Below, piece after piece: positions 2,712-12,520 of a stretch of 64,000 bases of DNA. This DNA comes from Desulfatibacillum sp. (GTDB lineage: Bacteria > Desulfobacterota > Desulfobacteria > Desulfobacterales > Desulfatibacillaceae). The notes under the pieces are model-generated. The model did no database searches and had not been told where the DNA came from. It saw nothing but the letters and a program-made list of their open reading frames with translations. The stretch is from contig JAEINP010000003.1 in the NCBI GenBank assembly GCA_016342355.1, forward strand, positions 1 to 64,000. The letters are read 5' to 3'. Made by a program: the position numbers and the translations under genes. Each line of letters starts with the position of its first letter. The stretch's first letter is position 1.

Positions 2712-2740
2712 TTGACAAATTGCATGAAATGTTATATACT
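2712..2740 (+). promoter_or_regulatory. near-consensus sigma-70 promoter
   Basis: TTGACA at 2712-2717 and TATACT at 2735-2740 are separated by exactly 17 bases. The transcript would begin near 2747, leaving a leader of about 155 nt before the FmdB start at 2902. This is the best promoter match I see in the window. Confidence 0.75.
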
Positions 2741-2746
2741 ATTCAA

Positions 2747-2901
2747 TTGTTTGATGGACTCGTGAGATTCCGTCAAATTCCGGGGTTATGATCCCGGACC
2801 CTGTGGCATTCGGCTACTGGGTTTTGAAAAGTATATAGCTTGGGTACTGCCCCGGGTATGGGTTATTCTACCCGGGCAACAGCCTGATTCGGAGATTTGT
2901 C
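2747..2901 (+). ncRNA. structured leader or 6S-like small RNA
   Basis: The predicted transcript folds strongly. An 8-bp hairpin pairs 2851-2858 with 2869-2876. A closing stem pairs 2774-2782 with 2890-2899 (one bulged G) and buries the GGAG ribosome-binding site of the next gene. A second hairpin, 2779-2784 with 2793-2798, uses part of the same 5' strand, so the two folds exclude each other. The 3' part (hairpin, then ACAGCCTG, then CGGAGAT) resembles the 3' strand of enterobacterial 6S RNA. It could be a 6S RNA gene, a regulatory leader controlling translation, or both. I recall no named riboswitch that fits. Confidence 0.4.
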
Positions 2902-3147
2902 ATGCCAATTTTTGAATTCAAATGCCTGGAATGTGAAGAGGTTTTTGAGGTGCTTTGTGTCAATTCCGACGACACTGTCGCCATGGAATGCAAGAAGTGC
3001 CAATCCCCAAATATTGAAAGAATCTTGTCCTCCACCAACTTCGCCATGGGAAGCAGCGGAGGAGGACAAGGCGCCGGGGCAAGCGCCCAGACTCGAAGCT
3101 GCTCTACAGGCTCTTGCACCACCTATAATGTGCCCGGGGTGGGCTGA
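2902..3147 (+). CDS. FmdB-family zinc ribbon protein
   Basis: An 81-residue protein. The N-terminal 45 residues form the FmdB/CxxC_CxxC_SSSS zinc ribbon: CLEC at 9-12 and CKKC at 30-33 would bind one zinc, after the typical start MPIFEFKC. The C-terminal half is low-complexity, rich in Gly, Ser and Cys (CSTGSC), as in many family members. GGAG at 2891-2894 is its ribosome-binding site and lies inside the leader stem described at 2747-2901. Function in the family is poorly defined (proposed regulatory role). It precedes the fur-feoA gene by 61 bases and may share its transcript. Confidence 0.8.
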   Translation: MPIFEFKCLECEEVFEVLCVNSDDTVAMECKKCQSPNIERILSSTNFAMGSSGGGQGAGASAQTRSCSTGSCTTYNVPGVG

Positions 3148-3208: not shown

Positions 3209-3931
3209 TTGAAAAAAAGATACGCCCTATTTGCCATGCCAGATTCCCTACATGTCCACAGCCTGGAGGAAAAGCAGTTTGCACAACTGTTTACCGACGA
3301 GGGCATAGAGGATGTGGAAGACCGCCTGGCCATCCTGCGGGTTTTCCTGGAAATCGAGGAGCATATCACCTCGGTCCAGTTGATGGACCTTTTGGAAAAG
3401 GCCGGGTATGAGTTTGAGCCCGACTTTGTGCGGGAAACCCTCCGGCTCATGTGCCGGTACGGTTTTGCCAGCAAACGGGACTTTGAAGGCCGTACCAGCA
3501 CCTACGAGCACCTGCACCTGGGCCAGCATCATGACCACATGATCTGCACCAAATGCGGGTCCATTACGGAATTTGTCCACGACCAATTGGAAGCGGTCCA
3601 GAAACAGGCGGCTGCTTCCTACGGGTTTCACATGCTCCAGCACAGGCTGGAGATTTATGGCCTGTGCTCCAAATGCTATAAAGAAAGGGTCAAACTTCTG
3701 CCCCTGGCAATGACCAAGGTGGGAGAACGGGCCACAATCCGGGATACAACAGGCTGCGCCAAGTTCAGGCATCGCCTCCTGACCATGGGATTACGCACCG
3801 GGGATAACCTGGAAGTAATCACTTCCGACGGCAGAGGGCAAGTGGTCGTTTCCGTAGAGGGCAGACGCATGGCCCTTGGCAGGGGACTGGCTCAGAAAAT
3901 CCTTGTGGAACCCATGAATGGTAATAGGTAA
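3209..3931 (+). CDS. Fur-family regulator fused to FeoA domain
   Basis: A 240-residue two-domain protein. Residues 1-160 are a ferric uptake regulator: winged helix, then the metal site HHDHMIC (107-113) and the structural zinc pairs CTKC (113-116) and CSKC (153-156). Residues 165-236 form a second, SH3-like FeoA domain (LGRGLAQKI near its end). A TTG start is chosen because GAGG lies 8 bases upstream; the next ATG (3236) has no such site. It sits 3 bases before feoA and then feoB, so it probably senses iron and controls this operon. The FeoA domain may couple the regulator to the transporter or the iron pool (inference). Confidence 0.88.
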   Translation: MKKRYALFAMPDSLHVHSLEEKQFAQLFTDEGIEDVEDRLAILRVFLEIEEHITSVQLMDLLEKAGYEFEPDFVRETLRLMCRYGFASKRDFEGRTSTYEHLHLGQHHDHMICTKCGSITEFVHDQLEAVQKQAAASYGFHMLQHRLEIYGLCSKCYKERVKLLPLAMTKVGERATIRDTTGCAKFRHRLLTMGLRTGDNLEVITSDGRGQVVVSVEGRRMALGRGLAQKILVEPMNGNR

Positions 3932-3934
3932 TCC

Positions 3935-4159
3935 ATGTTATTGAGTGAAATGAACCAAGGCCAGGAAGCGGTCATCGCCAAGGTTGGCGGCGCTGGCGCC
4001 TTTCGCAGGCGCCTTCTTGAGATGGGCTTTTTACGAGGCGCCACCCTGCGTGTGGAAAAATACGCCCCGCTGAAAGACCCCCTGGAAGTGACCCTGAACG
4101 GGTGCCATGTTTCCCTGCGTGTGGAGGAAGCAGCCCACATAGTCATGGAAGACGCGTGA
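3935..4159 (+). CDS. feoA: ferrous iron transport protein A
   Basis: A 74-residue stand-alone FeoA: a small SH3-like cytosolic protein that assists FeoB. The hallmark FRRRLLEMGFLRGATL (residues 23-38) is present, followed by the beta-strand DPLEVTLNGCHVSLR. It starts 3 bases after the fur-feoA stop, and its TGA overlaps the feoB ATG (ATGA), indicating translational coupling. The operon therefore encodes two FeoA domains, one free and one attached to Fur. Confidence 0.92.
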   Translation: MLLSEMNQGQEAVIAKVGGAGAFRRRLLEMGFLRGATLRVEKYAPLKDPLEVTLNGCHVSLRVEEAAHIVMEDA

Positions 4160-6342
4160 TGGCCTCCCTAAAAAAACTGACCATAGCCCTTGCGGGCAAT
4201 CCCAATTCAGGTAAAACCACCACCTTCAATAATATCACGGGAACCCGCCAAAAAGTGGGCAACTGGCCCGGCGTGACCGTGGAGAAAAAAGAAGGCCACG
4301 TGCGTTTTGGCGACTATGACCTGACGGTGGTGGACCTGCCGGGAACATACAGCCTGACCACCTTTTCCATCGAGGAAATCGTGGCCCGGAACTTCATCCT
4401 GGAAAACAAGCCCGACGTGGTGGTGGACATCATCGATTCCTCCAACCTGGAACGAAGCCTCTACCTGGCCACCCAATTGCGTGAGCTGGACACCCAGGTT
4501 CTTTTTGTCCTCAACATGGCGGACCTTGCCAAAGACAAAGGCATTGTAATCGACGCCGACATGCTGTCCTCCCTCCTGGAAGTGCCGGTGATTTTTACGG
4601 TGGGCAACCGGAACGAAGGCACGCCGGATCTGCTGAAAAACATCATCAGCGTGGCGGAATCAGGCAAGGGCCCTCCGGCGGAAAGACGTGTCCGGTACAG
4701 CCAGGATATTGAAAAAAGCATTGCCGTTGTACGGAATCTCCTCCAGGAACACGCCGGAGAGGGCTTTCCTTACAATCCAAGATGGACAGCCATCAAGCTC
4801 ATTGAAGCGGACGAAGTGGTCACCCAATTGGTCTCCAAGGAACTGGGACTGAACGCCGCGCCCATATTGGATGAAACAACCCGGCAACGGAACAAAATTT
4901 CCAATCTTTTCGACGATGAGCCCGAAATCCTCATGACCGAACAGCGCTACGGATTCATTGCCGGAATCGTGCGCGAGGTGGTCAAACGATCGTCCATCAA
5001 AAGGGTGGATGTTTCCCGGAATATCGACCTGGTCCTCACCAACCGGGTGTTGGGTTTTCCGATTTTCTTCTTTTTCATATGGGCCATGTTCCAGCTTACA
5101 TTCACCCTGGGCGCTTATCCGCAGACCTGGATAGAGCGGGGGGTGGAGCTCACATCCATGGGTATGACCCAAATCCTGCCTTCCGGCCTGATCCAGGATT
5201 TAATAGTCAACGGCATCATCGCCGGGGTGGGCAGCGTACTCATATTCCTGCCCAACATCCTGATTTTATTCTTCTGCATCGCCCTGTTCGAGGACACGGG
5301 TTACATGGCCCGGGCCGCTTTTCTCATGGACAAGGTCATGCACCTGGTGGGCCTCCACGGGAAATCCTTCATCCCCATGCTCATGGGTTTCGGATGCAAT
5401 GTGCCCGCCATCATGGCGGCCCGCACCCTGGAAAACGAAAAAGACCGCATCCTCACCATTCTCATCAATCCGTTCATGTCGTGCTCGGCTCGGCTGCCGG
5501 TCTATGTACTTTTGGCCGGGGCCTTTTTTGCCGAAAAGGCCGGGACCGTTATTTTCAGCATCTACCTTTTAGGCATTGTGCTGGCCATTGTCATGGGCAG
5601 GATATTCCGGAACACCTTGCTGAAGGGGAGCGTCGCCCCCTTTGTCATGGAATTGCCGCCCTACCGGGTGCCCATGGCCAAAAGCCTCATGATCCACATG
5701 TGGGACAGGAGCAAGCTCTTTTTAAAAAAAATGGGCGGGGTCATCCTGGTCGGCTCCATCATTATATGGGCGCTGTCCACCTTTCCCCAAAACGAGACCC
5801 TTGTCCGGCAGCACGAAATAGAAAAGCGGCAGGTGCAAACCACCTTTGCCGTGCGCAAACCCAACGCCTCGCAACAGGCCATCAACGTAAGAATGATGGA
5901 GCAGGACAAGGCCCTGGCCGCTCTGGACCGTAAATATCTGGCCATGGCCAAAGAAGAATCCTATCTGGGCGGTATCGGCAAGTTTTTCGCCCCGGTTTTT
6001 GCTCCCATAGGCATTGACTGGAAGGGCGGCGTAGCCCTGTTCACGGGATTTGTGGCCAAGGAGATAGTTATTTCCACCATGGGAGTGCTCCACGTCACCC
6101 GGGACGATTCGAAAAAAGGCCTGGCCGAAGCCCTGAAACAATCCGGTATGACGCCCTTATCCGCCTTTTCCATGATGGCGTTCATCCTGCTTTACGTCCC
6201 CTGCCTTGCTACGGTTTCGGCCATACGCCAGGAAACCAATTCATGGAAATGGACCGCCTTTTCCATTGGCTATAGCACTACCCTGGCCTGGGTGGTCGCC
6301 TTTGTCATTTTCCAGGGCGGACATTTGCTGGGACTGGGATAA
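4159..6342 (+). CDS. feoB: ferrous iron transport protein B
   Basis: A 727-residue inner-membrane Fe(II) transporter. The N-terminal G domain has G1 GNPNSGKTT (about 13-21), G3 DLPGTYSL and G4 NMAD; the helical NFeoB spacer follows to about residue 270. The C-terminal half has the two Gate repeats, with CNVPAIMAAR and MSCSARLPVY as conserved signatures, and ends in hydrophobic helices. The ATG at 4159 overlapping the feoA stop is preferred over an upstream in-frame ATG (4102) inside feoA. A strong hairpin follows the stop, ending the fur-feoA/feoA/feoB unit. Length is typical of the family. Confidence 0.96.
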   Translation: MASLKKLTIALAGNPNSGKTTTFNNITGTRQKVGNWPGVTVEKKEGHVRFGDYDLTVVDLPGTYSLTTFSIEEIVARNFILENKPDVVVDIIDSSNLERSLYLATQLRELDTQVLFVLNMADLAKDKGIVIDADMLSSLLEVPVIFTVGNRNEGTPDLLKNIISVAESGKGPPAERRVRYSQDIEKSIAVVRNLLQEHAGEGFPYNPRWTAIKLIEADEVVTQLVSKELGLNAAPILDETTRQRNKISNLFDDEPEILMTEQRYGFIAGIVREVVKRSSIKRVDVSRNIDLVLTNRVLGFPIFFFFIWAMFQLTFTLGAYPQTWIERGVELTSMGMTQILPSGLIQDLIVNGIIAGVGSVLIFLPNILILFFCIALFEDTGYMARAAFLMDKVMHLVGLHGKSFIPMLMGFGCNVPAIMAARTLENEKDRILTILINPFMSCSARLPVYVLLAGAFFAEKAGTVIFSIYLLGIVLAIVMGRIFRNTLLKGSVAPFVMELPPYRVPMAKSLMIHMWDRSKLFLKKMGGVILVGSIIIWALSTFPQNETLVRQHEIEKRQVQTTFAVRKPNASQQAINVRMMEQDKALAALDRKYLAMAKEESYLGGIGKFFAPVFAPIGIDWKGGVALFTGFVAKEIVISTMGVLHVTRDDSKKGLAEALKQSGMTPLSAFSMMAFILLYVPCLATVSAIRQETNSWKWTAFSIGYSTTLAWVVAFVIFQGGHLLGLG

Positions 6343-12127: not shown

Positions 12128-12520
12128 ATGACAGACCAACGTGCGCGCCTATACAATCTTTCGTCAGGGTTCGCGGATGCTTTCAATCGCGGGAATCTTG
12201 ACGATATAATGGATTTCTTTGCCCAGGACGCCATTCTAGAGGATAGCACAGGAGGGAAGCACAAAGGAAAAGAAGCCATTCGAGCCGCCTTCAGGCCCCT
12301 TGTGGATGGCGGACAAGGCAAAATTCGCTTTGATCTTGAAGACTTTTTTACTGAGGTGGAAACCAAGAAAGTAATGATCAGGTGGACCCTGCACACCAAC
12401 ATGGAGGGAGACTGGAAAAAACGGCGTGGAATGGACATCTTACGTTTCAGCGGCGACAAGATTGTTGAAAAACTGGCTTACACAAAGGCTGAGGTCCCGG
12501 TGCTCAGTGACGGCCCCTAA
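12128..12520 (+). CDS. SnoaL-like/NTF2-fold protein
   Basis: A 130-residue protein with the cone-shaped NTF2/SnoaL fold. The N-terminal helix (FADAFNRGNLDDIMDFFAQDAILEDSTGG is typical of its helix-strand start, residues 15-43) is followed by GKEAIRAAFRPL and a beta-sheet ending in RFSGDKIVEKLAY. Members bind or isomerise small hydrophobic molecules, and no catalytic residue identifies a reaction. AAAGGAA precedes the ATG. A TATACT-like -10 (12075-12080) inside a TGACT/AGTCA dyad lies just upstream; the 250 bases back to the ferredoxin gene otherwise show nothing I recognise. Confidence 0.7.
   Translation: MTDQRARLYNLSSGFADAFNRGNLDDIMDFFAQDAILEDSTGGKHKGKEAIRAAFRPLVDGGQGKIRFDLEDFFTEVETKKVMIRWTLHTNMEGDWKKRRGMDILRFSGDKIVEKLAYTKAEVPVLSDGP

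Follow-up and report, generated by a model that had tools for sequence, protein, structure and literature searches.

What does the DNA in front of the iron-transport genes of Desulfatibacillum sp. specify besides a promoter? The window analysed here, a stretch of 64,000 nucleotides to which all coordinates refer, holds an fmdB gene followed by genes of the Feo type, and an earlier note on this DNA had proposed that an RNA able to cover the fmdB ribosome-binding site is made here. This proposal proved right in outline, as a conserved structured RNA is present. The gene order is methyltransferase, element, fmdB, fur/feoA fusion, feoA and feoB:

1749-2705, + strand: SAM-dependent (leucine carboxyl) methyltransferase gene, the upstream neighbour
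2891-2894, + strand: Shine-Dalgarno sequence GGAG of fmdB, identical in Desulfatibacillum alkenivorans
2902-3147, + strand: fmdB, encoding an FmdB-type zinc-ribbon protein of 81 aa (PF09723)
3209-3931, + strand: gene for a fusion protein, a Fur domain followed by a C-terminal FeoA domain (PF01475, PF04023), directly before feoA and feoB
3935-4159, + strand: feoA (PF04023)
4159-6342, + strand: feoB (PF02421, PF07670, PF07664), its start picked by inspection

The methyltransferase gene and fmdB have the same direction, and the stop codon of the former lies 7 nt from the -35 hexamer described below. No terminator was found between the methyltransferase gene and this hexamer by a terminator scan. 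In D. alkenivorans (genome L020) the methyltransferase, fmdB and fur-feoA genes occur in matching order. Matches to both the Fur and the FeoA domain were also seen in six of the eight other genomes of the family.

The answer that we prefer, and to which we give about even chances, is modelled on predicted folds: the element at 2713-2902 would be a promoter-embedded translational insulator placed before the fmdB-fur/feoA-feoA-feoB operon.

Promoter and leader hairpins

The two promoter hexamers also belong to the strands of two predicted RNA stems, named P0 and P1:

2712-2717, + strand: -35 hexamer TTGACA; also most of the P0 5' strand
2735-2740, + strand: -10 hexamer TATACT; also part of the P1 5' strand

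Together they form the promoter TTGACA-17-TATACT (2712-2740), in which 11 of the 12 consensus bases are present; it is the only site with at least 11 of 12 on either strand of the 64 kb. D. alkenivorans keeps it with a spacer of 18 nt instead of 17, a difference that equals one bulged A in P1, and the near-consensus promoter of the earlier note is thus upheld. A short transcript starting near 2747 is predicted from the promoter consensus alone. An antisense promoter made from the inverted copy of the -10 hexamer was rejected, since it gives a 9/12 match in D. alkenivorans only and has no -35 hexamer in the window. A leader peptide was also rejected: the short frame ATG GAC TCG TGA at 2754 is absent from D. 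alkenivorans.

The leader is indeed structured. The segment 2745-2915 folds to -62.9 kcal/mol (z -3.2) and none of 200 shuffles was equally stable, while about 1% of the 160-nt stretches sampled elsewhere in the window reach a z as low. The lowest z of the 160-nt scan (-5.5) was found at 12161-12320, where a 130-aa ORF (12128-12520) begins. Four hairpins are predicted in the leader:

2749-2778, + strand: H1, the first structure of the predicted promoter-initiated RNA
2780-2798, + strand: H2, with a GGG/CCC core that is kept; it contains the hairpin 2779-2784/2793-2798 of the earlier note
2798-2822, + strand: H3, followed by UUUU; weak and terminator-like
2840-2887, + strand: H4, abutting the fmdB ribosome-binding site

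The sequences of the leader hairpins differ strongly between the two Desulfatibacillum species and their shape is kept. In D. alkenivorans, H1 (2750-2759/2768-2777) has undergone two compensatory double changes along with two wobble changes and keeps its core, and the core of H3 (2803-2807/2813-2817) is retained with one compensatory and two wobble changes, its lower stem being lost. H4, which consists of a 6-bp base, a 3-nt bulge on the 3' side and a longer inner stem, shows the same topology when each species is folded independently. The shape of H1, H3 and H4 is preserved through compensatory change. When the two leaders were aligned and folded jointly, the consensus structure was better than all 500 column shuffles. 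Nearly or fully identical stretches are the promoter, GAAAAGTATATA at 2826-2837 and GCCTGATTCGGAGATTTGTCATGCC at 2882-2906, the last being a 25-nt invariant block that includes GGAG. The conserved bases are those of the promoter, the ribosome-binding site and their partners, and the loops and junctions diverge.

The predicted fold of 2713-2902

When transcribed whole, the strand 2713-2902 is predicted to form one large nested RNA structure, in which the promoter supplies the 5' strands of the following stems:

2713-2721, + strand: P0 5' strand UGACAAAUU, pair probabilities 0.8-1.0 in both species
2894-2902, + strand: P0 3' strand GAUUUGUCA, comprising the last G of GGAG, the spacer and the A of AUG
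2725-2728, + strand: P0b 5' strand UGAA, identical in D. alkenivorans
2888-2891, + strand: P0b 3' strand UUCG, including the first G of GGAG
2731-2746, + strand: P1 5' strand, GUUAUAUACU (2731-2740) plus the inner UUCAA (2742-2746)
2824-2839, + strand: P1 3' strand UUGAAAAGUAUAUAGC, containing the 12-nt GAAAAGTATATA, which is identical in both species

P0 joins the -35 region to the Shine-Dalgarno/AUG segment, and P1 (outer part 2731-2740/2830-2839, inner part 2742-2746/2824-2828) joins the -10 region to the conserved 12-nt block and encloses three hairpins in one domain. Among the conserved stretches the promoter and GCCTGATTCGGAGATTTGTCATGCC have evident functions; the conservation of GAAAAGTATATA, otherwise puzzling, is explained by this pairing with the -10 region. 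In both species P0 and P1 pair with probabilities of 0.8-1.0 in folds whose 5' end is placed from 30 nt before the promoter onwards.

Several lines of evidence support this fold. The segment 2708-2906 folds to -81.9 kcal/mol (z -6.66) and its D. alkenivorans equivalent to -79.9 kcal/mol (z -4.99), and 100 other stretches used as control gave a mean z of -0.3 and a minimum of -4.25. A fold begun at 2745 has z -3.2, and one begun at 2708 has z -6.7. In D. alkenivorans none of the 23 pairs of P0, P0b and outer P1 is lost, the 10 pairs of outer P1 included; inner P1 is held only partly. Two pairs change and remain paired: U2721-G2894 in P0 becomes C-G and U2732-G2838 in P1 becomes U-A. Covariation in P0 and P1 is nevertheless weak, because only two species are compared and most pairs of these stems are invariant, and the conservation of their 5' strands can be explained by conservation of the promoter alone.

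For pairing of the 35-nt promoter segment with the leader, the calculated interaction energy was -18.4 kcal/mol in the window and -16.4 kcal/mol in D. alkenivorans. None of 1000 shuffles of leader or promoter was lower in either species, with one leader shuffle of the window tying -18.4 at printed precision. The raw value of -18.4 was reached at 8 of 2500 random genomic positions; taken from a single species it is not overwhelming, and the weight lies in its repetition in D. alkenivorans. The - strand, too, is more stable than its shuffles, but falls about 17-21 kcal/mol short of the + strand (in the window, -61.3 versus -81.9 kcal/mol). This excess stability, together with several G-U pairs, favours a structure in coding-strand RNA over a palindrome in the DNA. 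Taken as a model, the fold 2713-2902 is well supported.

The covering stem differs from the one first proposed. The earlier note had described two folds of a single leader, in which a closing stem (2774-2782/2890-2899) covers the GGAG site and an alternative hairpin (2779-2784/2793-2798) frees it. The complementarity of the closing stem is present in the window sequence, yet its pair probabilities do not exceed 0.005, and forcing it costs about 9 kcal/mol (-52.9 versus -62.2). In D. alkenivorans two of its nine pairs are broken and two become G-U, with no compensatory change on both sides, and it was abandoned as the covering stem. The alternative hairpin is present in the window sequence; in D. 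alkenivorans it keeps just the GGG/CCC core and one outer pair. A lack of covariation among relatives had been named in advance as evidence against both stems, and this is what the closing stem shows and what the hairpin nearly shows; across the two sequences no covariation was seen in this pair of stems. The site is covered instead by 2713-2721/2894-2902 and 2725-2728/2888-2891. Since the 5' strands of this stem lie upstream of the predicted transcription start, the two states are, in the model, probably two different transcripts, one of read-through and one initiated at the promoter, and not two folds of one leader.

Candidate insulator and rival explanations

According to the preferred reading, RNA running in from the methyltransferase gene would carry the 5' strands of P0 and P1, fold, and hide the fmdB start, so that stray transcription would leave the iron operon untranslated. 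P0 and P0b tie up the first and last G of GGAG together with the A of AUG. RNA begun at the embedded promoter (around 2747) would lack both 5' strands and retain H1-H4 only; its start site would be cheaper to open and thereby easier to translate. The switch would then be which promoter made the RNA, and not a ligand. The nested order H1-H3, P1, H4, P0 may allow the structure to form during transcription without rearrangement. The predicted cost of opening the segment that runs from immediately before the Shine-Dalgarno sequence to AUG is 7.3-10.4 kcal/mol for RNAs starting at or upstream of the -35 hexamer and 2.7-7.0 kcal/mol for RNAs starting at 2745-2749 or an equivalent position. Once the short RNA is extended by 40 nt of coding sequence, the Shine-Dalgarno sequence is still predicted to be paired and the relief amounts to only about 2-3 kcal/mol; in these models the fmdB start is only partially relieved in the short RNA. 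We infer the regulatory role of the fold from models of two species.

Other explanations have to be weighed against this one. The leader may be an ordinary structured 5' UTR, whose hairpins stabilise the mRNA and fix its translation rate, the promoter pairing being a by-product or irrelevant. Such a role would suit H1, which covaries and lies at the extreme 5' end of the predicted RNA, and the loop sequences are unconserved, as purely structural hairpins would be; but the conserved 12-nt block and the promoter-leader complementarity, found in both species, are left without explanation, and we consider this view unlikely, though deserving of weight. It is quite unlikely that the same bases act as a DNA operator, with the inverted TATATACT over the -10 hexamer and AGTATATA at 2830-2837 serving as repressor sites, perhaps for Fur-FeoA, that loop or occlude the promoter. 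The 5.26-Mb genome contains exactly two perfect matches to TATATACTNTTCA, at 2733-2745 and 2825-2837 in opposite orientation, and the sites are 98 and 100 bp apart in the two species. Nonetheless, P0, the stability excess of the + strand (-81.9 versus -61.3) and the G-U pairs would all go unexplained, and genomic matches to TATATACTNTTCA with at most one mismatch are barely above control (13 versus 10). A TATATACTNTTCA regulon was rejected, no clear excess over control being seen in the genome. The TATATACTNTTCA pair at 2733-2745/2825-2837 could serve in the DNA as an operator in addition to forming stem P1.

A shade less plausible still is a cis-regulatory RNA of the riboswitch type, in which an iron-related ligand or partner would control closure of P0. 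Its multi-branched form, a closing stem on the ribosome-binding site and the iron-transport operon downstream agree with this idea, whereas the transcript of the embedded promoter is devoid of P0 and the junctions and loops differ within the genus, with no conserved pocket visible in the two sequences. The riboswitch families suggested by the earlier note were not recovered either: no Rfam family matched at gathering score in the whole window, and none matched the equivalent region of D. alkenivorans. Premature termination offers another possibility, very unlikely in our view, by which H3 and its U-run would end most transcripts near 2826, leaving an RNA only about 80 nt long. Both species do have a hairpin and a following U at this position, but the U-run is short, the lower stem of H3 is unconserved, the terminator scan did not call H3 in D. 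alkenivorans, and no conserved competing antiterminator was found. The likeness to 6S RNA that had been noticed by eye is the sole point in favour of a 6S RNA or a 6S relative, for which the probability is negligible: the region 2650-2960 gave no match to RF00013 even at E 10, and the genuine 6S gene of the genome lies on contig C25 (16306-16490) with 84.6 bits against RF00013, for which the gathering score of 46.4 was the cut-off.

Known systems and distribution

The closest parallel to the insulator reading is found in phage T4. In the long early transcripts of the lysozyme gene e the start is buried in a helix; late promoters sit in the DNA that encodes the 5' strand of this helix, and from them a shorter RNA is made that is translated (PMC3014915). 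The starts of T4 soc, 49 and I-TevI are likewise occluded in early read-through transcripts (PMC3014915). As in gene e, the Shine-Dalgarno/AUG segment of fmdB is in the 3' strand of a helix predicted to be stable in the long RNA (P0 at 0.8-1.0 in both species), and the promoter is inside the 5' strand (-35 hexamer in P0, -10 hexamer in P1), which the predicted promoter transcript would lack. The setting differs, being a bacterial chromosome with a sigma-70-type promoter before an iron operon, and in place of the simple hairpin of gene e there is a 190-nt multi-branched fold with both hexamers in stems. Long transcripts exist for gene e, whereas the long transcript of the element is putative. 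By analogy, the element may work like gene e, two structural features of that system being present, and it is a candidate and not a proven member of the group.

Transposons offer a second parallel. In IS10/Tn10, as Davis reportedly described in 1985, the fold of read-through RNA hides the transposase start, and the start stays unhidden in RNA from the transposase's own promoter. The transposase start of IS200 is reportedly protected from external transcription in a similar way (Beuzon, 1999). Both papers are among the references of PMC2965389. The element shares with both the read-through RNA that is predicted to fold and hide a start, but it is no transposon, and the genes that it would protect serve iron transport of the host. 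In the ompA mRNA a 5' stem-loop stabilises the transcript. H1 resembles it in being the 5'-terminal structure of the predicted short RNA, although the ompA stem-loop includes no promoter sequence and its start is not occluded by upstream RNA. With 6S RNA (RF00013) the element has in common a structured RNA of similar length and nothing more.

No published description of the 2713-2902 element was found in a literature search. We suggest tentatively, as possible rather than probable, that this is a chromosomal promoter, belonging neither to a phage nor to a transposon, whose -35 and -10 hexamers are both strands of RNA stems, such that any transcript covering the promoter silences the start downstream of it and transcripts of the promoter itself do not; as an insulator of iron uptake it might be the first of its class. 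If this is true, promoter DNA bears a second message at the level of RNA, and from the promoter region the ribosome can tell by which promoter the mRNA was made. A cellular metabolic operon would then use a device that has otherwise been recorded for phage lysis genes and transposases, and selection on the leader structure, including the upstream promoter sequence, would be explained. More cases could be sought by a simple rule, namely promoter hexamers complementary to a downstream start region.

Among 291 genomes of the order, the leader covariance model matched only the two Desulfatibacillum genomes. One weak extra hit (E 0.08) was rejected, as by inspection it resembles a ribosomal-protein coding region. 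Elsewhere in the order fmdB mostly has, by inspection, a short leader with the promoter close to the start. Upstream of fmdB in L033 (about 2490-2690) the folding z is -8.1 and GTGGACGAA/TTCGTCCAC inverted repeats occur near the start; this region resembles a repeat array rather than a further copy of the element. In another genus of the same family (g3), fmdB lies upstream of fur-feoA with an ordinary leader (z about -2) and has a different gene upstream. There, fur-feoA has its own upstream region (L105, about 1440-1475, and the equivalent in L104) with dyads of the AAGGCAAGCCTAA type, which are perhaps a metal-regulator box.
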